Shown: positions 48,747-64,000 of the stretch, one piece after another
Layout of the letters: every line of letters starts with the position of its first letter
How positions within the stretch are numbered: position 1 is the first letter of the stretch
Assembly: GCF_008326425.1 (NCBI RefSeq)
Contig: NZ_AP018929.1
Coordinates: 696,875 to 760,874, forward strand
DNA: 64,000 nt
Direction: 5' to 3'
Origin: Sulfuracidifex tepidarius
GTDB taxonomy: Archaea > Thermoproteota > Thermoprotei_A > Sulfolobales > Sulfolobaceae
Program-made: the position numbers and the translations under genes
Notes under the pieces: model-generated
The model's database searches: none
Told to the model about the DNA's origin: nothing
The model's input: the letters and a program-made list of their open reading frames with translations, nothing else

Positions 48747-49658
48747 TTACATGAATCTCTTGAGGACGTCCAACGGGTTAGTTATGTTTGCTGTGAGAAG
48801 GGTCTCCGAAGGGCTGTGACCGAATGCGAAAGCCACTAGCTGGGAGAAGTAAACTAACGGCATTCTCAAGTCCTCTCCGTACTTCTCAGCTATCTTGTTC
48901 ATGTTAGTCTCTATAGCTACATGTCCTAGAGGGCAGTCGGTTATCAGGAGTTCAGCTCCGTTCCTCTTAGCTTCCTTCAATATTCTAGCTTCCAAGTGAA
49001 GGGCTACTTCCACATCAGAGTATGCGTGGGGGCCTCCACAGCACATGGTCTTAGCTTCGAATGGTACTACCTCTGCTCCTAATGCCTGCAATATCTCGTC
49101 CATGAATGAGGGTCTCTCTGGGTCGTCTCTCAGTCCCATGTAGCCCGATAGAGTGTAAGACTTAGGTCTGGTGTATAGACAACCATAGTATGGAGCTACC
49201 TTCAACCCGTTCAAGGGCCTCTTAACCCTGCTCTTAACTCCTTCCACACCTACGCTGTTGTAAATGTACTCCACCGCGTGTACCATGAGGAGCTTGCTGT
49301 CGTAAGGCTTGTTCCCCATCTTCTCTAGGTAAGTGTTGACTTTCTGTGCTACCTTAGGGTACCTCGTCATGAAGAACTGAGTCCTGGACAGGGAGTAGTG
49401 GCACCCAGGGCATGCAGATACTACAGCGTCGGCGTTCATCTCTCTAGCTAGGGAGAGGTTCCTCGCGGGCAAAAGCAGACCAGCCATGGTGTTGACGTTC
49501 TTTACCTCAAGCGCTCCACAGCAGTTGTAGTCGCTTATCTTGTCGAGTGGGAGACCTAGGTCTTTAGCTACCAGCTTCAGGGACTCCTCATAGGACTTCC
49601 CAAGGCCGTCGAGAGAACAGCCAGGGTAGAACGCAACTTTACCGTATGGAGAGTTCAT
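48747..49658 (-). CDS. hdrB2: sHdr subunit HdrB2 (heterodisulfide reductase B-like, CCG domain)
   Basis: 303 residues, last gene of the sHdr operon. Two CCG-type modules are visible. The first has [19 protein letters not shown] and ACPGCHYSL; the second has [20 protein letters not shown] and DCPLGHVA. In HdrB such cysteines bind noncubane 4Fe-4S clusters where the disulfide or sulfane substrate is handled. In sHdr the complex oxidises protein-bound sulfane sulfur to sulfite. The start overlaps hdrC2 by four bases. Confidence 0.9.
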
Positions 49659-50386
49659 TGTGGGACCACCTGATACCTGATGTTTGCCTGAAGGTCCTCA
49701 GGCTTTATCTCTTCTTTCATGGCATCCTCTAGAACAGTCTTAACCTTATCCCAGTCTTTAACTCTGCTTGGCTTCATTACGTCCTTTATTAACCCTGACT
49801 TGAGGAGAGCGCCGCTCATGGATATAAGGTCACGTAAGCTCAAGGTCACGAAACCTGCCTTAGCTGACGCTCCTCCCAGTGTGAGCTCCGATATCCTGCC
49901 TCCGTTCTTCATTACGACGTCTAGGAAGAGCTCGTCGAAGACTGTACCAGGGTCTGTCTGTACTAGACCGTGCTTTAGCAAGTAGTTATGAATGGAGTGG
50001 ACTACCTCCTCTACCAGGACTCCCTTAGGGCATCTGTGAGTGCACTTCTGGCATGAGACACACCTCCAGATGGAGTTCTGCAACTCTATGAGAGACTCTT
50101 TGTCTCCCTTCCTGGCTAGGTCGATGAACCTCCTGGGGCTGTAGTTGGGGTCATACTCCCTCATTGTGCACCCTGAAGTGCACGTACCGCACTGCCAGCA
50201 AGCGCTTATTGTAGCGCCCTCCAGTGTACCAGCTATTTCGTCCCACACCGAGGGATCGTACCCGGTCTGCGTCCTCTCTATCATGAACGCGTTCCAGGTA
50301 CCATCTACCTCTACTCCATCTACGACTACTTTCTCTTTTTCAATTAAACCTTTAATTATAGGTTTTTCAAGATTTGGAATTGGCAA
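49655..50386 (-). CDS. hdrC2: sHdr subunit HdrC2 (4Fe-4S ferredoxin-type)
   Basis: 243 residues with two 4Fe-4S motifs: [11 protein letters not shown] and [14 protein letters not shown], each continuing as in HdrC. It relays electrons between HdrB2 and the flavin subunit. Start ATG 50386 overlaps the upstream gene by 20 bases. Part of the conserved C2-B2 pair. Confidence 0.9.
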
Positions 50387-51095
50387 CTTGTATCACCTTT
50401 AAATATGGTTTTAAGCCCATAACCAGGGCTGTGGTGGACAGATGAGATGGGTAAAGCCCCCCGGCCTTCCTGTCCACGGCCAGGAGGGTCGCATAGTCCA
50501 CATATCGGACGTATGCGTAAACTAAAAAAATTGAAGTTCCGAAATAGTTCGGGACGTCTAGCCCGAAGATGGAAAGGGTGTCCCTCAGCTCTTTCACTGC
50601 GGAGAAGAACTCCTGTTCGTTAGAGAGCTTCAAGCCCTCTTTCAACACGTAAGTGATGGAGCCGGTGCCTCTCTCATTGTTCCATATCCACCTAGTCCAG
50701 AGAGGATAGTTCTCGGGCTCCATGAAGTGGATCAACTCCCTCGCCATGTCGCGTAAGTCTTCCTCAGCCTCAGGATAGGACAGGGAAGTTATGGCGCTGA
50801 CTCTCTCGTCGTAGGTCAGAGTGCTGTCCTGAAGCTTGGAGAAAGCTTGAGAGAACTTAGATATACCTACCCTCTCCATGATGGGGTTGAAGTACTTCCT
50901 CGCGTAAAACACTGAGTCGAAGACCTTTTTAGCGTCGTCCTGAGTGTTGATCTGGAGCTCCCTCATCTCTTTGGACTTAAGCTCCATCGCCTTGAGAATA
51001 TTGGAGAGGGCAGCTTTGGGATCCCCCTTAACAGTGTTAAAAGAGTCCCTACCTAGGACTGCCTGATAAATATCCTTAACATAATCTATTTGCAA
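50367..51095 (-). CDS. Conserved sHdr-cluster protein (Hyp) of unknown function
   Basis: 242 residues, mostly helical, no cysteine cluster and no membrane span. Its position between hdrA and hdrC2 matches the 'hyp' gene of the hdrC1B1A-hyp-hdrC2B2 clusters of sulfur oxidisers. It has no assigned biochemical role; features include [15 protein letters not shown] and a Tyr-rich [12 protein letters not shown] segment. Start ATG 51095, eight bases after hdrA. Confidence 0.8.
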
Positions 51096-51102
51096 AAAAT
51101 TG

Positions 51103-52206
51103 TTAATGGTGTACCACCTGGGCCACGGCCTTCTTGTTGAAGTCCGATTCCTCCCATATGCCCTTGGTGGCGTACTCGTACGCCTTTATCGCAGCTGCAG
51201 TACCTTCAGTGATTGAGTCTGAGATGGTCTTAGGTCCTGTCAATGCTCCTGCTAGGAATATGCCCTTCTTTGTTGACTGTACTGGCATCCTGTCAGGATC
51301 CATCGGTTTGATGAAACCGTGGTCTTCCAGCTCAAGGCCGAGAGCCTTCGCCACTTGTTTTGAGCCTAGACCTAGTTCCATACCATTAGCCAAGATTACC
51401 ATGTCGTATGGTACTGCGAGAGCTCTGTTGAGGTTCATCGTGTCTTCTCCCTTTATGATTACTGTGTCGTTTGGACCCCTCATGAACTCCGATATCCTTC
51501 CTCTTATGAAACCTACTCTATAGTCGAGCTGTGACTTCCAGTACAGCTTATCCTCCATTAGACCGTAAGTCCTTATGTCCATGTAGTAGATGTGGACTGT
51601 AGCGTCTGGTACCCTTTCCTTGATCTCCATCGCCTGTTTCGTTGAAACTGCACAACATACTCTAGAGCAGTATGTGTTCCCTACAGTAGCGTCCCTAGAT
51701 CCTACGCAGAGGAGTATGGCTACCCTCTTCGGAGGCTTTCCGTTAGTGGTAACTAGTTTGTTCTCTGAAAGCATCTTCTCAATGTCTGATATCTGGTAGA
51801 TATTGGGTACCACACCGTAGCCGTACTCGTATTTCCTCCTCGAGTCGAAGTGCTCGAAACCTGAAGCCGCAACTATCGCGCTTACCTTCTCAGTCTTCAC
51901 TGCTCCCTTCTTGTCCTTAAGGGACACCACGAATCCGTTACCCTCTTGCTTTATACCATCAACTATGGTCTCCATGTAGGTCTTAACGTTCTTGTTTTCC
52001 TGCACTGTCTTTATGAGTGGGTCTATAACTTCTCCCGCTGGTCTGAGCTCGGGGAATAGTAAACTGTACTTGAGCTTCTTGGGAGTTCCTCCTAGGTAAG
52101 ATTCTTTCTCCACCAGGACTACGTTAAGTCCCATGTTTGTAAGTTCTCTAGTAGCCGAGAGCCCTGCTGGGCCCGCTCCAATTACCATTACGGGTTCATT
52201 TGCCAC
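51103..52206 (-). CDS. hdrA: sHdr subunit HdrA (FAD-containing)
   Basis: 367 residues. FAD-binding Rossmann motif VIGAGPAGLSATREL near residue 6, VEKESYLGG next, second motif region ILANGMELGLG, and a 4Fe-4S Cys motif in CVGSRDATVGNTYCSRVCC as in HdrA. Electrons from sulfur oxidation would leave through this flavin. It is much shorter than methanogen HdrA (about 650 residues), as is normal for sHdr types. GTG/ATG-proximal pyrimidine-purine spacing is ordinary. Confidence 0.9.
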   Translation of the reverse strand: MANEPVMVIGAGPAGLSATRELTNMGLNVVLVEKESYLGGTPKKLKYSLLFPELRPAGEVIDPLIKTVQENKNVKTYMETIVDGIKQEGNGFVVSLKDKKGAVKTEKVSAIVAASGFEHFDSRRKYEYGYGVVPNIYQISDIEKMLSENKLVTTNGKPPKRVAILLCVGSRDATVGNTYCSRVCCAVSTKQAMEIKERVPDATVHIYYMDIRTYGLMEDKLYWKSQLDYRVGFIRGRISEFMRGPNDTVIIKGEDTMNLNRALAVPYDMVILANGMELGLGSKQVAKALGLELEDHGFIKPMDPDRMPVQSTKKGIFLAGALTGPKTISDSITEGTAAAIKAYEYATKGIWEESDFNKKAVAQVVHH

Positions 52207-52259
52207 TTTTTCACCACCTTTATTTAAGTAAAAATTATTAAAAAACTTTGCTTAAGATG

Positions 52260-53594
52260 TTACTTATTATCTTGCTTCTTGTACCAGCTTACCCTTTCAG
52301 GAAGAGTCAGGTAGAAGTCGATCTTCCTGTGCTTGGGGTAGAGGTACTGTGGTTCTGCCTTCCCTTCTCTCAGGTCTTGTAGGTACTGTATGAACTTCTC
52401 CTTGTAGTCGTCAACTGGTACTCCCACCTTCCTCATGAATCCTTCAACGTCGGTCGCGTGCCAGTGTACTTGCCCTACTGTATATGGGTCTGCTCCCATC
52501 AGTATAGCTCCGAACTGGGCGTCAGCTAACACCGGAAGGTTGTAGTCGAAACCGTGAGCCTTCCCTGCCCACTGGCTCTTGTCTAGAGTAGTCACACACC
52601 CTGTATCGCTGGTTACGAACACATCTGCGTGTCCCTCATTGACTGCAGGCATTACCTTCTTGAACAGCGCGAAAGACCTCGTGAACTCCCTCTCTGTCAG
52701 GATGTGCCTGAAGCCGAATCCACAGCAGTCCCACCAAGTGGAATAGTCAACCAGTTTAGCTCCGAAGTTCTGAACTGTCCCTGAAGGTGCAGCGGGCCTC
52801 CTTCCCTGCCATACTTCGCCGTCGTAAATCGTGTCCTCAGGAGCTAGCTTATAGATGTGGCAAGGTGTGTGAACTGCTGCCTTAACGTTGCTTACGTCAT
52901 ATTTCCTCTGAGCTGCTGCCTTCTTGCTCATGGCATACATCCACTCTGAATAATGGACTACCTCCTCTGGTATTACTATGTCCATGTCTAGCTTCCTCAT
53001 GATTGGTCTTAGCTTCTCCCTTACTTCTTTCTCCAAGATTATGGTGTTCCTGACCTCCTTGTAATGACCGAACGAAGTACCGCAGTGGATTAGAGGGAAG
53101 TAGTCAGTCTCGTAAGCCCTCCACATGTTCCTTACGTAGACTCCTGCTAGGGCTACCGGGTTTGAAGCTCCAGATGCGTGATAATTCCACCCAGTACATG
53201 AGGTCTGGTGCGGTTCGTCTAGGTAGTCTACCTCAAGTTTGTTCATTATCCAGAACACTGAGGTAGGATATCCCGGTATGTGACCACATTGTCCGCAGCT
53301 CTTGTGCTGCCATAACTTTGTGGTCGGGATCTTCTTTGTCAGTCCGTTCAAGGACTGGAAGTCCATTGGGTTATTATAAGGCTTTATGTGGTGTACTATG
53401 ATCTCTCCTTTGTCCTCCAACTTGTACATTTCCTCTTTTATATGGGCTAGACTGTGAGGAGATCCATATCTGTATATAACTCTCTGATATATGTCGTCCC
53501 AAGTTAACTGGTCTGACATCGGAAATGCGTCCTTTATTTCTTCATTCATCTTCTTTTCTACATTTTCCTGTGCCAACTTTTCACCATTTATCAT
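52260..53594 (-). CDS. hdrB1: sHdr subunit HdrB1 (CCG domain)
   Basis: 444 residues. It has a long N-terminal extension and a first Cys region (WQHKSCGQCGHIPG, then TSCTGWNY), followed by the CCG-type module with HTPCHIYKL, WWDCCGFGFRH and TSDTGCVTTLD. In sHdr complexes HdrB1 with HdrC1 and HdrA forms one half of the enzyme. Larger than HdrB2, as in other archaeal clusters. Confidence 0.88.
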   Translation of the reverse strand: MINGEKLAQENVEKKMNEEIKDAFPMSDQLTWDDIYQRVIYRYGSPHSLAHIKEEMYKLEDKGEIIVHHIKPYNNPMDFQSLNGLTKKIPTTKLWQHKSCGQCGHIPGYPTSVFWIMNKLEVDYLDEPHQTSCTGWNYHASGASNPVALAGVYVRNMWRAYETDYFPLIHCGTSFGHYKEVRNTIILEKEVREKLRPIMRKLDMDIVIPEEVVHYSEWMYAMSKKAAAQRKYDVSNVKAAVHTPCHIYKLAPEDTIYDGEVWQGRRPAAPSGTVQNFGAKLVDYSTWWDCCGFGFRHILTEREFTRSFALFKKVMPAVNEGHADVFVTSDTGCVTTLDKSQWAGKAHGFDYNLPVLADAQFGAILMGADPYTVGQVHWHATDVEGFMRKVGVPVDDYKEKFIQYLQDLREGKAEPQYLYPKHRKIDFYLTLPERVSWYKKQDNK

Positions 53595-53698
53595 CTTCTT
53601 CTGAACCTTTAAAAACTTTATTATAATAGATTTTTTAAGAATGAAAGAAGAAGTTTTAATAATTTAGAAAATTAAGCAAAAAATGAAGATTCCCTTAT

Positions 53699-54541
53699 TT
53701 ACATGTCCAGCCAGCTGTCGGGGAGCTCGTCCTCGTTCAACTCTCCCTTCTCCCACTTCTCCTTGAGGTCCTCTAAGGTCTGTTTCCTTTCCTCGTATAT
53801 GTCCATTATCATGTCGTACAAGTCCTTGTCTACACCCTTCAGGTACTCTATTACTCCAGACTCAATGAAGATGGTCATCATTTCAACTGCAGTCTGTAGA
53901 GAAGCGTGCCATCCTACGTCTGTCCTCTGAAGCAGGTCTACCGGGACTGCTTGCCTATAGACAGTCATGTTCTTTGATTCCTCTACTGCTTGGGGTCCCC
54001 AGTCTGGGAATGTGTCGGGCTGAATCATGTCTGGGGTTACTTGGTTTCCAGTCGTGATGACTGTTAGCAGGATCCTCCTGTAAGGAGCCAATATTTCCTT
54101 AGCTGACGGAAGGGCAAACTGAACTGAGTATTCCCTCAGGAGCATTATCAGACCGGCTATCTCATTGTTGAATGGACATCTCATTGAGCAGGTGAAGCAT
54201 TGTACGCAAGCCCAGACTTTCTTGTTTGTGAACTCCCATATCTTGTCTACTGCGTCCCTCATCATGTACTGTATCATTTCCCTGGGACCGAAGTCGTAGA
54301 ACTTCGCTGCTGGGCATCCTGAGGTACATACACCGCAGTTGAGACATCCTCTGAGATAGTCGTTGAATCTGAAGTCTTCTTTCACTGCGTTCCAAAACTT
54401 AACTGCTACCTCCCTTTCCTCGGGTTTGAGGTTGCTTAAAAAGTTTCTCTGTTCCTCGGGTTCAGCTCCCTGAACGTCGTAAGCCATGTCCATGAATCTT
54501 GGATCGTCCGGAAGAGGTGGAAGAACTGTTTTTGTTGCCAT
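53699..54541 (-). CDS. hdrC1: sHdr subunit HdrC1 (4Fe-4S ferredoxin-type)
   Basis: 280 residues. Two 4Fe-4S motifs: CLNCGVCTSGCPAAK and CVQCFTCSMRCPFNN, typical of HdrC, then a mainly helical C-terminal half. It transfers electrons between HdrB1 and HdrA. A spacer of about 100 bases separates it from hdrB1 and 60 bases separate it from tusA. Confidence 0.9.
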   Translation of the reverse strand: MATKTVLPPLPDDPRFMDMAYDVQGAEPEEQRNFLSNLKPEEREVAVKFWNAVKEDFRFNDYLRGCLNCGVCTSGCPAAKFYDFGPREMIQYMMRDAVDKIWEFTNKKVWACVQCFTCSMRCPFNNEIAGLIMLLREYSVQFALPSAKEILAPYRRILLTVITTGNQVTPDMIQPDTFPDWGPQAVEESKNMTVYRQAVPVDLLQRTDVGWHASLQTAVEMMTIFIESGVIEYLKGVDKDLYDMIMDIYEERKQTLEDLKEKWEKGELNEDELPDSWLDM

Positions 54542-54852: not shown

Positions 54853-55275
54853 TTAGATGAACAGAGTTATACCGCCTTCGGCTCTATCTAGGAAGGTAGC
54901 AACGCCTGCAACATCGTCAACGAATGGGGCTAGGTCGTCCCTCTTTATACCGAAGAACTCCATGGTGGTGGAGCATGCAATCACTTTCACTTCTCCTACT
55001 TCCTTGGCTTGCTCTAACAGCTGGGTCCACATTGGGAAGTTCATTTCCTTCATCTTCTGCATCATCATTGGACCGAACTGTTCGTAGTTCTTGTCTATTG
55101 GCTGCATTCCTTCCATTGACTTCTTGGTAATAGCATTCAACCCCCAGAAAGTGAAGAAGACGTTCACCTCGTATCCTGCCGCGGCTGCCCCTGAAGCCAA
55201 TATCCCCACTGGCATCAGTTTATCTATTGTTCCTGAAAATACTATGAGAGACAATTTCTTCTTATTCTCGGACAC
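54853..55275 (-). CDS. DsrE-family sulfurtransferase, DsrE2B-like
   Basis: 140 residues, DsrE fold. The candidate active Cys is in VIACSTTMEFFGI, which matches the DsrE2 pattern C-x-x-(S/T)-M-x-x-x-G better than the two-Cys DsrE3A pattern. The hydrophobic segment around MPVGILASGAAAAGYEV could associate with membrane. First gene of the minus-strand sulfur operon, start GTG 55275. Presumed to pass sulfur to TusA and the sHdr complex. Confidence 0.82.
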   Translation of the reverse strand: MSENKKKLSLIVFSGTIDKLMPVGILASGAAAAGYEVNVFFTFWGLNAITKKSMEGMQPIDKNYEQFGPMMMQKMKEMNFPMWTQLLEQAKEVGEVKVIACSTTMEFFGIKRDDLAPFVDDVAGVATFLDRAEGGITLFI

Positions 55276-55629
55276 GTTTTATCGCCTATTCTTATTTAAC
55301 AACTAAACTTATTTAAGCTTTTCCGATTTTGATGATTACTTTTATAAATTTTTTACTTAGAAAAAGTTTAAGAGAAAAAAACTTAAAAAATATCTAATTG
55401 ACTTATTGAAATCTTTTTCGTTCATGTCTGAGTTAGAACAAAAAATAGAGAGGTATAGATACTTTCATTCCTAAAATACACTAGTTGTATAAAATAGTAA
55501 ATAAGATTAGTTAAGTATTTAGTTAAAAAAGAAAATCTATGAAAGTAATAACTACTTGAAATCTAGAATGGTGTAAATCATCGAAAAAAAATTTAAGTAA
55601 GAATGTTAAGAAGATATATCAGATTAAAA
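55276..55629. promoter_or_regulatory. Divergent promoter region of the sulfur-oxidation gene cluster
   Basis: 354 AT-rich bases between the minus-strand dsrE2B operon and plus-strand dsrE3A. On the minus strand TTAAATAAG boxes lie about 20 and 37 bases before GTG 55275; on the plus strand AATTTAAGTAAG (55588-55599) lies about 36 bases before ATG 55630. The length leaves room for regulator sites, but none is recognisable. Confidence 0.5.
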
Positions 55630-56010
55630 ATGGCAGAAGAAGAACAGAAGAAAAAAGTCCTAATAGTCGTGACCCATGGACCAGAAGATCTAGACAGGAC
55701 ATATGCACCGCTTTTCATGTCATCTATCTCAGCATCAATGGAGTACGAGACTAGCGTTTTCTTCATGATAAAGGGACCTAAGCTTCTAGACAAGAAGTGG
55801 CAGGAAAGTGAGAGAGCTAAGGGAGACAACCCATTCATAAGGTTCTTCGACATGGCCAAAGACAACGGAGTGAAGATGTACGTCTGTGTGCAGAGCTTGA
55901 AGGACATGTGCCACATGAACGAAGGAGACGTAGTTGAAGGAGTAGAACTAGTAGGTGGTTCAACCCTCATAGACCTCACCTTCGACGCTGACAGATCCCT
56001 GTTCTTCTGA
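55630..56010 (+). CDS. dsrE3A: DsrE3A sulfurtransferase
   Basis: 126 residues. Two Cys eight residues apart (C86 and C94 in [16 protein letters not shown]) fit DsrE3A, for which work in Metallosphaera cuprina showed binding and transfer of thiosulfate to TusA. ATG 55630 (MAEEEQKKK) was chosen; an upstream alternative would add nine residues. It is divergent from the dsrE2B-tusA-hdr operon and six bases before the next gene. Confidence 0.88.
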
Positions 56011-56016
56011 TCTCTC

Positions 56017-57318
56017 ATGTATGAAGTCCTAGTGATCGGCGGCGGGTCTGCTGGATACGTGGCTGGAAGCGTACTAGCTAGAAAGGGTATAAAGACAGCC
56101 GTGGTGGAGAAGGAGAAGTTCGGGGGTACATGCGTAAACTCGGGTTGCGTCCCAAGTATTTTTCTTTTTGATTCTTCTTTTATGCTTTCTAGATGGAAAG
56201 AAATAGGAGATTATAAGGGAATTAACGTAGACGTTGAGATGAGCGACTGTACGTTCTCTAAGAGGGACGACATAGTTTCCTACTTATCATCTGCAGGAAG
56301 GTCATTGGTGGAAAACGCCGGGGCTCAAGTTTACCTCGGCGAGGCGAAAATCAGGGAGAAGGGGAAGGCGGAGGTCAACGGAGAGACAATTGAGTTCAAG
56401 AGACTGATCGTGGCGAGCGGCTCCTCTCCTATTTCTTACCCCGGCGTAATCACTGAGGACGAGGCTGTGAACCTGAGATATGTGCCCAGAGACATGATAG
56501 TCGTTGGAGGAGGGTATGCGGGAGTAGAGATAGCGCAGATCTTCGCCAGACTGGGTTCCTCGGTGACCCTAGTTACCAGACACAGGATCCTGAGCGGGTT
56601 CTCTGAGAAAGCACGGGATTACGTGATCCAGTCGCTGGAGTTCGACGGTGTTCAAGTCAAGGAATTTCACGAGGTGATAAAGATGGAAGGCAACGAGGTC
56701 GTGACCAACAAGGGAACTATGAAAGGGGAAGTTGTGGTCTCAGCGATGGGGAGGAGACCCGTATTACCTGAAGGTTTAACGAAGAACTACAACGTGAAGG
56801 TTAACGAGAAGGGAATAGCCGTCAGGAGGAACATGATGACTGACGACTGCGACGTCTTCGCTGTCGGGGACGTTATAGACAAGCCTAACAAGACCGCTCA
56901 CTCAGCCATGTACGAGGCAATAGTAGCTTCACAAACGATCTCCGGAACTCCGATGGAGGTGAGCTACGAGTGCATACCTAAAGTGATATACTCAGACCCT
57001 CAGGTCGGGATCGTAGGTGTGCCTGAGAAGGCAACTAAGATAGCAGAGTTCCCATTTAACGCAGTTACCCGTGCTACTATTTCCGGTCTTAGGGATGGTA
57101 TGGTGAGGATAGGGTTCAATGAGAGGAACGAGATTGTGTACGGAGAGGTAATAGGAAAGAATGCCGAAGAATTGATAAATATACTCACGCTCGCTGTCAA
57201 GTATAGGGTGAACATGTTCGACCTTGCAACCACAGTTTTCGTTCATCCTTCCCTTTCAGAAGCAATTTCAAACGCGTCTAAGTCGGTCTTTGACCTCGAT
57301 GTGGATCGCTTCAAGTGA
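56017..57318 (+). CDS. lpdA: Dihydrolipoamide dehydrogenase-type flavoprotein
   Basis: 433 residues. FAD motif VIGGGSAGYVAG, redox disulfide in GGTCVNSGCVPS (Cys39, Cys44), NAD motif VVGGGYAGVEIA, FAD-binding AVGDVIDK, and the C-terminal His-Glu pair in FVHPSLSEAI. It reoxidises dihydrolipoyl groups with NAD+. Next to sHdr genes it presumably serves the lipoyl carrier LbpA rather than a 2-oxoacid dehydrogenase. The CxxxxC motif and His-Glu pair are intact, so it should be active. Confidence 0.88.
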   Translation: MYEVLVIGGGSAGYVAGSVLARKGIKTAVVEKEKFGGTCVNSGCVPSIFLFDSSFMLSRWKEIGDYKGINVDVEMSDCTFSKRDDIVSYLSSAGRSLVENAGAQVYLGEAKIREKGKAEVNGETIEFKRLIVASGSSPISYPGVITEDEAVNLRYVPRDMIVVGGGYAGVEIAQIFARLGSSVTLVTRHRILSGFSEKARDYVIQSLEFDGVQVKEFHEVIKMEGNEVVTNKGTMKGEVVVSAMGRRPVLPEGLTKNYNVKVNEKGIAVRRNMMTDDCDVFAVGDVIDKPNKTAHSAMYEAIVASQTISGTPMEVSYECIPKVIYSDPQVGIVGVPEKATKIAEFPFNAVTRATISGLRDGMVRIGFNERNEIVYGEVIGKNAEELINILTLAVKYRVNMFDLATTVFVHPSLSEAISNASKSVFDLDVDRFK

Positions 57319-59053: not shown

Positions 59054-60424
59054 ATGTCATCGTCACAAAAGGTTTCAGATCCTTTAGAAGTGTTATCAAA
59101 CCAAGAAACCATAGAGAGCTTATCTAAGTTGCTAGAAGGTATGCCATCCCTAGTCAAGTTAACGTCAAAGATAAGCGAGATGGACAAAAAGGGAGAGCTA
59201 GACGTATTGATGACTATACTAGACCAGTCTGCCTCAATTCTTGACGCTGTACAGAAGGCTGACTTGATAAACACACTGATAACCTTCTCCATGGACCAGA
59301 TAGGCAAGGTACAAGCACTGTGGCCACTCCTGGAGAAGATGACCAGTGAAAGGGCACTCTCCCTGCTTCAGTCCATGGACATAGACGGCCTCCTCACCGC
59401 AGCAGAGAAGATGACCCCTGTCCTGCAGAAGATGACCAGCGACAAGGCCCTGAAGCTCATGGAGGGAATGAACTGGGACTCACTACTTGACGCTACTGAG
59501 AAGCTCATGCCGGTCATGCAGAAGATCACTGATGAGAGGGCACTCAAGGCAATTCAAAGCTTAGATTACGACACACTACTAGAGGCTACTGAGAAGCTAA
59601 CTCCTGCGTTAAACAAGATAGCCGGGCTCATGGTAGACATGCAGAACAAGGGTCAGATGGACACACTCCTCAACGCCATGGAACAGGGAATAGCCCTTCT
59701 TGACGCTGTACAGAAGGCTGACTTGATAAACACACTGATAACCTTCTCCATGGACCAGATAGGCAAGGTACAAGCACTGTGGCCACTCCTGGAGAAGATG
59801 ACCAGTGAAAGGGCACTCTCCCTGCTTCAGTCCATGGACATAGACGGCCTCCTCACCGCAGCAGAGAAGATGACCCCTGTCCTGCAGAAGATGACCAGCG
59901 ACAAGGCCCTGAAGCTCATGGAGGGAATGAACTGGGACTCACTACTTGACGCTACTGAGAAGCTCATGCCGGTCATGCAGAAGATCACTGATGAGAGGGC
60001 AATTAAGCTGATACAGAGTCTAGACGTGGAGTCTCTCCTCTCTACAATGGAGGCAGCTATGCCACTGCTCAAGAAATTCACTGACCCTAACATGGTGAAG
60101 ATGCTGACTCAAATGGACTGGGACTCAATGATGGGAATGATGGGTAAGCTGGCTGAACTTCAGAAGACGGGAGTCATGGACAAAATGATGTCAATGATGG
60201 ACACGTTTGCAGACCCACAAGTCATTGACGGGTTAGTCCTAATGTCCTCCAAGTTCGCCACTGCATTGAAGATGTGGATAAACGAACTGCCTTCAGTGAG
60301 GCCTGCAGGAAACGGGTTATTGCTTAAAACCGCTGGTATACCCGCAGATGACGACGTAAGATACGCACTAGGAATAATGATGAGCCTAGCGAAGGACATA
60401 GGGAAAGTGTTCAGACAAAGCTAA
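59054..60424 (+). CDS. DUF1641-like helical repeat protein
   Basis: 456 residues, no signal peptide, built from about ten helical repeats of 30-40 residues with [16 protein letters not shown]-like phrases; Met-rich. DUF1641 proteins occur near redox and sulfur genes, but their biochemical role is unknown. Residues 63-163 and 216-316 are identical because of a 302-base perfect duplication. The C-terminal segment ([28 protein letters not shown]) is the DUF1641-like end. Single gene, downstream of the sulfur cluster. Confidence 0.7.
59241..59542 (+). repeat. Perfect intragenic duplication, unit 1
   Basis: 302 bases identical to 59700-60001, offset 459 bases (153 codons). I found no mismatch when reading both through. 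Confidence 0.9.
59700..60001 (+). repeat. Perfect intragenic duplication, unit 2
   Basis: Second unit of the duplication at 59241-59542. The 157 bases separating the units also encode related helical repeats but have diverged. Confidence 0.9.
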
Positions 60425-60933: not shown

Positions 60934-61953
60934 CTAACTCCTTCTCAGCTTATCCATCCTTTTCCTAGCTTCAATAAGAGTCGATGAATCCGTGATCGTC
61001 TTCACATTGTCTATCCCTACAGAAGTTAAGCTTAACCTCGATAAGCCGGCTAGAAACGCCAACATCCCCAGATGAGAGCACTCTCCATACCCTCCCCCAC
61101 CATATCCTATAACTTTGAAAGAAAGTTCTCTTTGCATTTTTTCAATTTTCTTACCTAGCATGTAGAAAGAGTGAGGGGTTAACGAAAGGGAAGCTAGGTT
61201 GTCATTCCTCATGCCGTCAACGCCAGCAACGACTACAACATAAGACGGAGAGAAGTCCTTCACCACATCCAAGAAGGAGAGGGATTCCTCGAAGACGTCG
61301 TCACCTGACCCCAGAGGGAGACCTATGTTGTAATTCAGGTTCGCTCCTTCACCTTCTCCCCTTTCCTCTATCTTCCCCGTGCCTGGGAAGAAAACACCGT
61401 TATATGCAAAGATATTGATCTTCAGCACGGGGTCGCGATAGAGTATTTCCTGCAGTCCGTTTCCGTGATGTGCGTCTACGTCCACTATCGCCACTTTTTC
61501 GCCCGAGCGAATGAGCCTCTTCACTGCAATCGCTACGTCGTTAACTGGGCAGAAGCCCATGGCTCTCCCCGGGAGCGCGTGATGAAATCCTCCCAGCGGG
61601 ACGTAGATCTGGTCTATGTACTTCGACCTAGCTATTGCAGTCAACGATGATCCTACCACAAGTAAGACGTCCTCATATATGCCGGGGTAATGGACTGTGT
61701 CACCTGAGTCTAGAAAACCTATGTAAGGTATCTTACTCACTTCCTTCAGTGACTTCACATACTCCTCGGTGTGGACTTCCTTGAGGACTTCCTCCACAGC
61801 AGGTTCAGGGGCTATCTCAATGAGGCTCAGGTTCTTCCTGGCGCTCTCTATGAACTTCCTAATCCTCTGCTTGCTCATGTCCCTTATCATGGGATGGGAG
61901 AAGGATATCTCGAGGAACCTATCATCCCAAACTAAGCCTAGCAAGTGCACCAC
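60934..61953 (-). CDS. Histone deacetylase-family (AcuC/HDAC-like) deacylase
   Basis: 339 residues, arginase-fold zinc amidohydrolase. Catalytic His pair in PLGGFHHALPG, zinc ligands in VDVDAHHGNG (Asp, His) and AGVDG (Asp), and transition-state Tyr region GYGGGGYGE are all present, so activity is expected. Substrates of archaeal members include acetyl-lysine proteins or acylated small amines. The GTG start (61953) overlaps the preceding gene by 32 bases, making it the last gene of an operon with radical-SAM genes resembling lipoyl synthases; action on an acylated (lipoyl?) lysine is only a hypothesis. Confidence 0.87.
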   Translation of the reverse strand: MVHLLGLVWDDRFLEISFSHPMIRDMSKQRIRKFIESARKNLSLIEIAPEPAVEEVLKEVHTEEYVKSLKEVSKIPYIGFLDSGDTVHYPGIYEDVLLVVGSSLTAIARSKYIDQIYVPLGGFHHALPGRAMGFCPVNDVAIAVKRLIRSGEKVAIVDVDAHHGNGLQEILYRDPVLKINIFAYNGVFFPGTGKIEERGEGEGANLNYNIGLPLGSGDDVFEESLSFLDVVKDFSPSYVVVVAGVDGMRNDNLASLSLTPHSFYMLGKKIEKMQRELSFKVIGYGGGGYGECSHLGMLAFLAGLSRLSLTSVGIDNVKTITDSSTLIEARKRMDKLRRS

Positions 61954-62779
61954 CTATGAAGGTCGATAAGTCTACCTCGTCCCCCTCCTTAAAGGGTGAC
62001 CTAAAGAAGAACCTTACTAGTGGATATCCGTCGTAGGAAAGGACGGACTCCATGAAAGGAGGCCCACACATAGGCTCGTTCCTCAACACCTTAAATGTGA
62101 TGTCGTAGTCCCACCTCCTGATCGCTCCTTCCTTCCACTCGAAAAGGGAGACGTTACTACCCCTCTTTGAGGCTACCTTCCCTATTTCCGTGCCATACAT
62201 GGTCACAGAAGTCCCCTTGAGCATGGACGTTCCTATCACTCCGCCGTAACATGAGAAGGGGTAGCTCGCGTTTAACATCCCCCCGCTCTCAATACCCATT
62301 CCGTGTAATTTGCCTGCACTAGCGAAGTCTATCACCTTAACGTCAAAGGAATCATTTCTCACGTTCATTACTCTTCCCAGTTTAGAGGTAACTTTCGTCT
62401 TAACCTCTGAGATCCTCAATGAAACTCCCTCTAGATGAGCGTGAGGAAAGTCTCCTCCAGTGTATGGGGACGAAATGAAGCTCCCTATCTCGTCCCCTTC
62501 CTTGAAGCCCTGACCCGGAGAAAGGAAGGGATCGACGTGTAACATCTTTATCTTTCTCCCCTCTACCTCGATGAAGGATATCACGTCGTAATCATGTTGA
62601 GCGTGCCTATTCGGTCTCCCTATCTTCACCTTCTCGCTCCCAAGAAAGATCCCTGAGAAAGGTGCTCTGAACACTTCCATGTCCACGGAAGACACGTCCA
62701 CAGCTCTCCCGTGAACGTGGGACGAGAAACCGCTAGAAAAAAGGCTTAGAGGAGTACACTTCTTCAGCTTCAGTATCAA
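61922..62779 (-). CDS. M23 peptidase/lipoyl-fold-like protein of unknown function
   Basis: 285 residues, cytoplasmic. The first half resembles M23 (LytM) domains: SSHVHGRAVDVS (His...Asp), KMLHVDPFL, a GQGFKEGDEIGSF turn, and DFPHAHLEGV (His-x-His). M23 enzymes share the barrel-sandwich hybrid fold with lipoyl domains. There is no signal peptide and archaea lack murein, so a cell-wall role is unlikely. The second half has MCGPPFMESVLSYDGYPL and no known family. Start TTG 62779 overlaps the radical-SAM stop (TTGA), so they are coupled. Confidence 0.65.
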   Translation of the reverse strand: MILKLKKCTPLSLFSSGFSSHVHGRAVDVSSVDMEVFRAPFSGIFLGSEKVKIGRPNRHAQHDYDVISFIEVEGRKIKMLHVDPFLSPGQGFKEGDEIGSFISSPYTGGDFPHAHLEGVSLRISEVKTKVTSKLGRVMNVRNDSFDVKVIDFASAGKLHGMGIESGGMLNASYPFSCYGGVIGTSMLKGTSVTMYGTEIGKVASKRGSNVSLFEWKEGAIRRWDYDITFKVLRNEPMCGPPFMESVLSYDGYPLVRFFFRSPFKEGDEVDLSTFIGGALARLSLG

Positions 62780-63822
62780 GATACTAAACTCACCACAGAA
62801 GGTAGCTTAGTGGCTTTCAGAGCTCTGACGGTCTGCTGTAGTGACGGGTACCAAGGTATGTTCTTCATCACTCCTCCAGGCCTCTCGTTGGAGTAAGGTC
62901 TGTTACACCCCGGACATCCGCTTGTCATGAACGCTGGGGACAAGTCTTCCGCCTTCAGGTCAGAGGGTAGCATTAAGTCCTTTAGCTTACCTTCCTCGTC
63001 AAAGACGAATGCGTCTTCGCCTACCACGTTGTTCTCTATCAACCATCTGGAAAGTTGCATCCTCCTGTACACCGACACTGGGACTGGCTTGACTTTCTCC
63101 ATGGGAGTCATCTCCTCCGGGTAAAAGGCGAACAGACTTATCTTGGCACCCCTACCGTGAGCGTAAAGCATCAAGTCTACAGCTTCCTTCTCAGTCTCAC
63201 CCAACCCTATGATCAGGTGTATCCCAGCGTTCATCTTCCCGAACACGTCTACTGCCTCATCTATTGCCTTGATGTACCTGTCCCAGGAGTGCATACTCCT
63301 TACTGGCTTCCCCCTAACGTTATCGAAGACCTCTCTGCTCGCTCCGTCTATAGCTACGTCTATCATGTTGGCCCCTGCCTTCCTCATGTCCTCCATGTGC
63401 CTCCTGTAGGTGTAAGTTGCAGTCACAAGTTCGGATATCTGAACTTCCACTCCGGCTTCTCTGATCCTCCTTGTTATCTCTATTGCGTCTGGCGAAGCTC
63501 TGGGATGTGCTAACTGTCCCACACATATTCTCTGGATCCCGTAGGTTGGATCCCCTTGTCTCTCCCTTATCCTCCTGATGACGTCGTCCAGTGGACGTAA
63601 AGGCCACTCTACCCTGATCAGTGTCTTACAATCTGGCCCTTCAGCCACTTCCCTAGCTTGTCCACAGTATTGGCAGTTAGCCTTGCACCCGTCAGGATAG
63701 TACTGAAGCAGGTTTATTGTAGTGTTCAGGGCATTTCTCAAGAAAACCCCTGGCGAGTAACCCAGGACCATGTCTGCCCCGAAACTCAACCTAACCCAAT
63801 CCGGACTGCTCATCTGTATCAT
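62776..63822 (-). CDS. Radical-SAM enzyme, lipoyl synthase LipS1/LipS2 type
   Basis: 348 residues. The radical-SAM cluster motif C-x3-C-x2-C is in GCKANCQYCGQAR; further conserved segments are MIDVAIDGAS, IHLIIGLGETEKEAV and the Cys pair SGCPGCNRPYSNERPGG near the C terminus. In archaea lipoate synthesis needs two such proteins, LipS1 and LipS2 (shown in Thermococcus), which add two sulfurs to an octanoyl group. Here two probable radical-SAM genes adjoin, and the sHdr pathway requires lipoate, so this assignment is favoured; a biotin-synthase-like role is the alternative. ATG 63822 overlaps the upstream stop (ATG inside TGAACATG). Confidence 0.72.
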   Translation of the reverse strand: MIQMSSPDWVRLSFGADMVLGYSPGVFLRNALNTTINLLQYYPDGCKANCQYCGQAREVAEGPDCKTLIRVEWPLRPLDDVIRRIRERQGDPTYGIQRICVGQLAHPRASPDAIEITRRIREAGVEVQISELVTATYTYRRHMEDMRKAGANMIDVAIDGASREVFDNVRGKPVRSMHSWDRYIKAIDEAVDVFGKMNAGIHLIIGLGETEKEAVDLMLYAHGRGAKISLFAFYPEEMTPMEKVKPVPVSVYRRMQLSRWLIENNVVGEDAFVFDEEGKLKDLMLPSDLKAEDLSPAFMTSGCPGCNRPYSNERPGGVMKNIPWYPSLQQTVRALKATKLPSVVSLVS

Positions 63823-63824
63823 GT

Positions 63825-64000
63825 TCACACCCTTAATATGTCCTGAACAACGTTGCCGCAGCAAGCGCTGCTCAGATGAATTTCCCTCCTCCCGCGGGCG
63901 TACTCTATTGTCTCTTCCTCGGGGAAAGCTATGCCGTCTATCCCGTAATCGACGGCGAACTTCTCCACCCTAAGGTAGGAGGAGCCACGAGGCCTGGCAC
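63825..64000 (-). CDS. C-terminal end of a second probable radical-SAM (LipS-like) protein (partial)
   Basis: An open minus-strand frame enters from the window edge and stops with TGA at 63825-63827. Its tail has FAVDYGIDGIAFPEEETIEY and a terminal Cys pair (SSACCGNV). This style of ending, with the acidic TIEYA stretch and CC, fits the larger partner of the LipS pair. It is directly upstream of, and coupled to, the radical-SAM gene. The protein's N-terminal part is outside the window, so the call is tentative. Confidence 0.55.
   Translation of the reverse strand, partial: ARPRGSSYLRVEKFAVDYGIDGIAFPEEETIEYARGRREIHLSSACCGNVVQDILRV

Follow-up and report, generated by a model that had tools for sequence, protein, structure and literature searches.

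M23L, an M23-like protein encoded beside LipS1 and LipS2 in Sulfolobaceae: a possible amidase in lipoate assembly on LbpA

A minus-strand operon of Sulfuracidifex tepidarius joins genes of lipoate assembly to that of an M23-like protein of 285 aa, here called M23L, and M23L is likely to be linked to lipoate assembly. The gene order is sLpl(AB) – LipS1 – LipS2 – M23L – HDAC-like deacylase. There is about an even chance that the operon is a Sulfolobaceae lipoate-assembly unit for LbpA, with M23L as an accessory and probable metal-dependent amidase of the acylated carrier. In the proposed mechanism, sLpl(AB) would attach octanoate or lipoate to LbpA, and LipS1 and LipS2 would insert the sulfur. 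M23L would be a dedicated accessory, an intracellular protein of the M23-type metallohydrolase fold, and would act as a metal-dependent amidase on the acylated GcvH/LbpA-type carrier, a site of action suggested by the genomic linkage.

Operon layout and the lipoate pathway

The DNA analysed (the window) is a stretch of 64,000 nucleotides, positions 696875-760874 of a single-contig genome of 2.56 Mb, and the operon runs past its end. sLpl(AB), a fused lipoate-protein ligase named from NCBIfam and its reading frame, heads the operon outside the window (64715-65749 in window numbering, minus strand), and the LipS1 gene (63825-64718, minus) crosses the window end, with only its 3' part (63825-64000) inside. 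On the DNA, the LipS1 gene ends at 63825 and the LipS2 gene (62776-63822, minus) begins with an ATG at 63822, leaving a gap of two bases. This ATG is probably the LipS2 start, the listed TTG at 63864 (reading frame 62776-63864) being less likely. The LipS2 and M23L genes overlap by 4 nt (TTGA), and M23L (61922-62779, minus, TTG start) overlaps by 32 nt the gene of the HDAC-family zinc deacylase (339 aa, 60934-61953, minus, GTG start). The reading frames and the DNA thus confirm the tight packing of four minus-strand genes given in the preliminary description, with its overlaps and two-base gap.

The remaining parts of the locus lie to either side. About 4 kb past the sLpl(AB) gene, outside the window, is the gene for LbpA, a GcvH/LbpA-type carrier (69669-70103, plus strand; PF01597, E=3.1e-31). 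Its divergent neighbour in the loci read, split ones included, encodes a 162-aa protein that is at most weakly phosphatase-like (L002:11126-11614, minus) and may be another gene of the lipoate module. On the other side are the sHdr cluster hdrB2, hdrC2, hyp, hdrA, hdrB1, hdrC1 (48747-54541, minus), named from sequence and gene order, and DsrE-like proteins with a dihydrolipoamide-dehydrogenase-like protein (54853-57318), named from sequence; the synteny of both is conserved. Lipoylated LbpA is essential to sHdr sulfur oxidation in the one bacterium tested. Between the sHdr side and the operon, a 456-aa DUF1641-like protein (59054-60424, plus) contains a long, nearly exact internal duplication.

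The identity of the radical-SAM pair is suggested by its best NCBIfam matches, both below the curated cut-offs and far above other families: NF053743 for LipS2 (E=1.5e-67, 228 bits, cut-off 270) and NF053742 for LipS1 (E=2.6e-58, 198 bits, cut-off 230). Both translations have the Cx3Cx2C radical-SAM motif (CKANCQYC and CAFNCKHC), and sLpl(AB) and LbpA are close by at each family LipS locus examined. Because of these matches and the adjoining sLpl(AB), LbpA and sHdr genes, we assign the pair to LipS1/LipS2 of the published sHdr lipoate pathway (PMC6067878, PMC10332631), as had been proposed from the sequence, and not to another cofactor pathway. The likeness to that pathway (Cao 2018, PMC6067878; Tanabe 2023, PMC10332631) extends to the ligase, the two radical-SAM synthases, the LbpA acceptor and the clustering with sHdr. 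The accessory named in those papers is LipT, an oxidoreductase, which differs from M23L, and a term search of them found no peptidase-like or deacetylase-like partner. Nor was M23L as a partner of the lipoate operon mentioned in the open-access papers searched, none of which dealt with M23 together with LipS1. Ligation of free octanoate or lipoate and insertion of sulfur are established for homologues and, by analogy, would be the steps carried out here.

The same genome holds a second LipS2/LipS1/LplA-like set at ~252,700-255,200 (L081:12749-15217), with no M23L or HDAC gene nearby, and, 9 kb from it, a GcvH-like gene accompanied by a ligase gene of its own (L081:2412-3954).

Gene neighbourhoods in Sulfolobaceae and other archaea

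Among the 31 Sulfolobaceae genomes surveyed, 27 have M23L, and LipS2 and close LbpA orthologues are found in exactly those 27. In each of the 27, the gene that follows LipS2 downstream is M23L, and the two lie within ~75 nt of each other in 27 of the 27 genomes that have either. M23L also adjoins the HDAC gene in 22 of the 25 genomes that have the latter. With such figures for both pairs, the clustering is far from chance, and the genes are co-conserved, as the preliminary description requires. The sHdr marker hdrB1 is present in all 31 genomes, M23L in only 27, so M23L tracks lipoate assembly and not sHdr itself; in the four genomes without it, lipoate assembly and sHdr come apart. Absence from the same four has a raw probability of 3e-5, a value that overstates the evidence, the four being partly related. 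These four keep sHdr and lack LbpA1, LipS, M23L and HDAC; in the three whose loci were read (L149, L150, L151), hdrB2 adjoins a second LbpA-like gene and a ligase of another kind.

Loci that have come apart are informative about which partner goes with which. Two Aramenus genomes and Metallosphaera yellowstonensis have a locus broken in two, with M23L on the piece that carries LipS2-LipS1-sLpl-LbpA and HDAC on that with DUF1641-lpd-DsrE-sHdr. The DUF1641-like protein accompanies HDAC in most family loci, and in two genomes (G032, G042) both are missing together while M23L is kept. The split loci and the HDAC-less genomes place M23L closer to lipoate assembly and HDAC closer to the sHdr group. 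M23L is thus likely to be the lipoate-linked enzyme, as far as gene content can indicate, and HDAC a looser deacylase of the sHdr cluster. Of the module first proposed, the lipoate operon with an M23-like partner stands, and the roles given to the two partners need to be redrawn in this way.

Outside the family, relatives of M23L occur patchily among archaea, most of them with unrelated gene neighbours. There are exceptions. Three genomes of one non-Sulfolobaceae genus have the order LipS2-LplA-M23L-LipS1, although one of the three contigs stops inside M23L or directly behind it. A genome from another family has M23L-LipS2-LplA-LplB, LipS1 being encoded on the other strand, and in two genomes of a further genus M23L is in looser proximity to ligase genes. 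In the tree, the M23Ls from LipS operons outside Sulfolobaceae are across a well-supported split from those of Sulfolobaceae, so that the association with LipS either has several origins or goes far back. These cases bear on whether M23L and HDAC are bystanders, kept in a conserved locus by genome inertia. Sulfolobaceae loci are highly syntenic overall and the four co-absences may represent few evolutionary events, as such an account would have it. We nevertheless consider it improbable, the least favoured of the alternatives, since M23L follows LipS-LbpA through the locus splits and recurs in distant archaeal LipS operons with different gene orders and in separated parts of the tree.

Across 398 genomes of the phylum, a strong LipS2 match was found in 16 of 18 M23L carriers outside the family, as against 115 of 361 others (p = 1.7e-6 by genome and 0.017 by family, neither corrected for phylogeny; the family-level counts were made by hand). 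M23L is absent from 115 of the 131 LipS2-bearing archaea sampled outside the family. Within the order of genome G368, also counted by hand, the association of M23L with LipS2 is not convincing (11 of 20 M23L-bearing genomes vs 4 of 12). Because the other nine of those 20 carriers, several of them incomplete genomes, are without a strong LipS2 match, the wider M23L family must, to judge from gene content, have another or a broader function. M23L is neither necessary to LipS1/LipS2 chemistry nor exclusive to it. More broadly, the relatives at L120-L131 and L154-L173 belong to a widespread uncharacterised archaeal M23-like family, found mostly outside lipoate loci and in hosts not known for peptidoglycan.

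Fold and active site of M23L

M23L is predicted to consist of an N-terminal M23 domain (~1-125) and a C-terminal beta domain. The sequence of the window protein alone found nothing in Pfam or NCBIfam, PF01551 above its gathering score included, and nothing convincing in the PDB; the M23 identity came only from orthologue sets and structure. Pfam M23 is matched by 13 of 18 orthologues (best 4.3e-6), and in distant relatives the matches shown are all under the curated cut-off. The AlphaFold model of M23L (pLDDT 90) gives a Foldseek list headed by M23 endopeptidases, and for the model of a distant relative (pLDDT 92) the top 50 are almost entirely M23/LytM structures. For both models the M23 matches have a probability of 1.0, with low whole-chain TM-scores because the N-terminal domain alone matches. 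The preliminary call of an M23-like protein therefore holds.

H21, D28, H81, H113, H115 and E117 are invariant in 69 of 69 archaeal homologues across the phylum. They form the pattern H21-x6-D28, H81, H113-x-H115 (HxHxE), in which H81 is 32 residues ahead of H113. M23 enzymes are defined by H(x)nD, in which n varies, by a His ~30 residues before HxH, and by HxH itself (PMC9662197). The agreement of the invariant residues with this definition points to a working metal site and not to a degenerate hub, and it is on this invariance that M23L is probably a catalyst. In lysostaphin, LytM, LasA and ShyA, the likeness is to the fold of the N-terminal domain and to H(x)nD / His / HxH; M23L departs from them in several ways: no signal peptide is evident by eye, its host has no peptidoglycan, the first His and the Asp are spaced as H-x6-D, a C-terminal beta domain is added, and the Pfam score lies under the cut-off. 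A cluster-binding role for a CC pair of M23L was considered and dropped, because the window protein lacks this pair.

The M23 and lipoyl folds are both barrel-sandwich hybrids. M23L might accordingly be a non-catalytic scaffold or carrier mimic whose lipoyl-related fold docks LipS1/LipS2 or sLpl, and degenerate M23 proteins do serve as hubs (PMC9662197). The lipoyl likeness is slight in sequence: no lipoyl-domain model matched significantly, Biotin_lipoyl_2 being found in one of the 18 orthologues (E=0.011). Degenerate hubs lose their catalytic residues, and in M23L the five of H/D/H/HxH are kept throughout. We therefore regard a scaffold as quite unlikely, and the inert, substrate-like protein suggested in the preliminary description is not what these residues indicate.

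The HDAC-like deacylase and the likely role of M23L

The HDAC-family protein (PF00850, E=2.1e-62) shares the whole catalytic domain and the active site of its family, which includes HDAC6/HDAC8, bacterial HDAH and archaeal HDAC-like proteins. H124/H125, D160/H162, D246 and Y289 (HH / DxH / D / Y) are invariant in 25 orthologues. It differs from other HDACs in belonging to a distinct orthologue group tied to the sHdr locus, whose members are at least 55% identical to the window protein, other HDACs of the order reaching ~42% or less. The alignment places L253 at the position taken as the gatekeeper of the acyl channel; Leu is presumably the residue there in HDAC6, and Glu in polyamine deacetylases. 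A polyamine deacetylase role was dropped on account of this Leu.

The preliminary description had suggested that this enzyme might erase lipoyl groups. As a lipoyl/octanoyl-lysine eraser or editing deacylase, it would free the LbpA lysine; its intact active site and the gatekeeper Leu would suit this role, in most genomes its gene runs into the M23L gene or almost touches it, and close orthologues are found only in LbpA-containing genomes. The split loci keep it with sHdr/DUF1641, and the two genomes from which it is missing have LbpA and LipS. Moreover, it could equally deacetylate an sHdr protein or another metabolic protein. The eraser role is thus weakly supported and unlikely, and we propose instead a zinc lysine-deacylase with an intact site that belongs to the sHdr cluster, shares the operon here and would be inessential to the lipoate module. 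Literature searches for HDAC-type delipoylases returned sirtuin papers only, and none was found on HDAC with sHdr in Sulfolobus.

M23L probably serves the lipoylated carrier protein by editing, recycling or maturing it. Most likely it would hydrolyse an amide, either on mis- or incompletely acylated carrier or in lipoyl/octanoyl-lysine, and both the carrier and the octanoate or lipoate would return in free form to the ligase. That the bond cut is an acyl-lysine amide is a guess. It is favoured because the ligase of archaea is believed to accept free acids only (PMC10332631), which an amidase would return. An acyl-carrier amidase is accordingly a tentative assignment for M23L, possible but short of probable. 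The second LipS1/LipS2/LplA set of the window's genome, being without M23L, counts against the model, as do the lack of M23L in most LipS2-bearing archaea sampled, the unconvincing association in the order of G368, and the lipoyl product that LipS1/LipS2 give in vitro with no M23L-like protein present (PMC9585515). M23 enzymes are not known to cleave acyl-lysine. Lipoamidases such as Enterococcus Lpa and sirtuins, among them SIRT4/CobB, are alike only in the type of reaction proposed; their folds and chemistry differ, and no homology is claimed.

The M23 enzymes of known activity are peptidases (PMC9662197), and the catalytic residues of M23L are all kept. Both points would suit a proteolytic maturase, which would cut a peptide bond to trim LbpA, LipS1/LipS2 or sLpl and would remove no acyl group. 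LbpA, however, has no known processing site. Furthermore, recombinant LipS1/LipS2 of T. kodakarensis give lipoyl product in vitro without an M23L-like protein (PMC9585515), and LbpA is lipoylated in vitro by bacterial sLpl(AB) (PMC10332631). A maturase is therefore unlikely.

The proposed amidase would have a wider implication: LipS1/LipS2 assembly might include an M23-fold metalloamidase that removes or recycles the acyl groups of the carrier, that is, a lipoate editing or turnover module, which we consider rather unlikely. For the supply, editing and recycling of octanoate and lipoate on archaeal carriers, M23L is a concrete, testable candidate. If the proposal is true, the M23 fold would extend from cell-wall hydrolysis to cofactor metabolism and would be used inside the cell.
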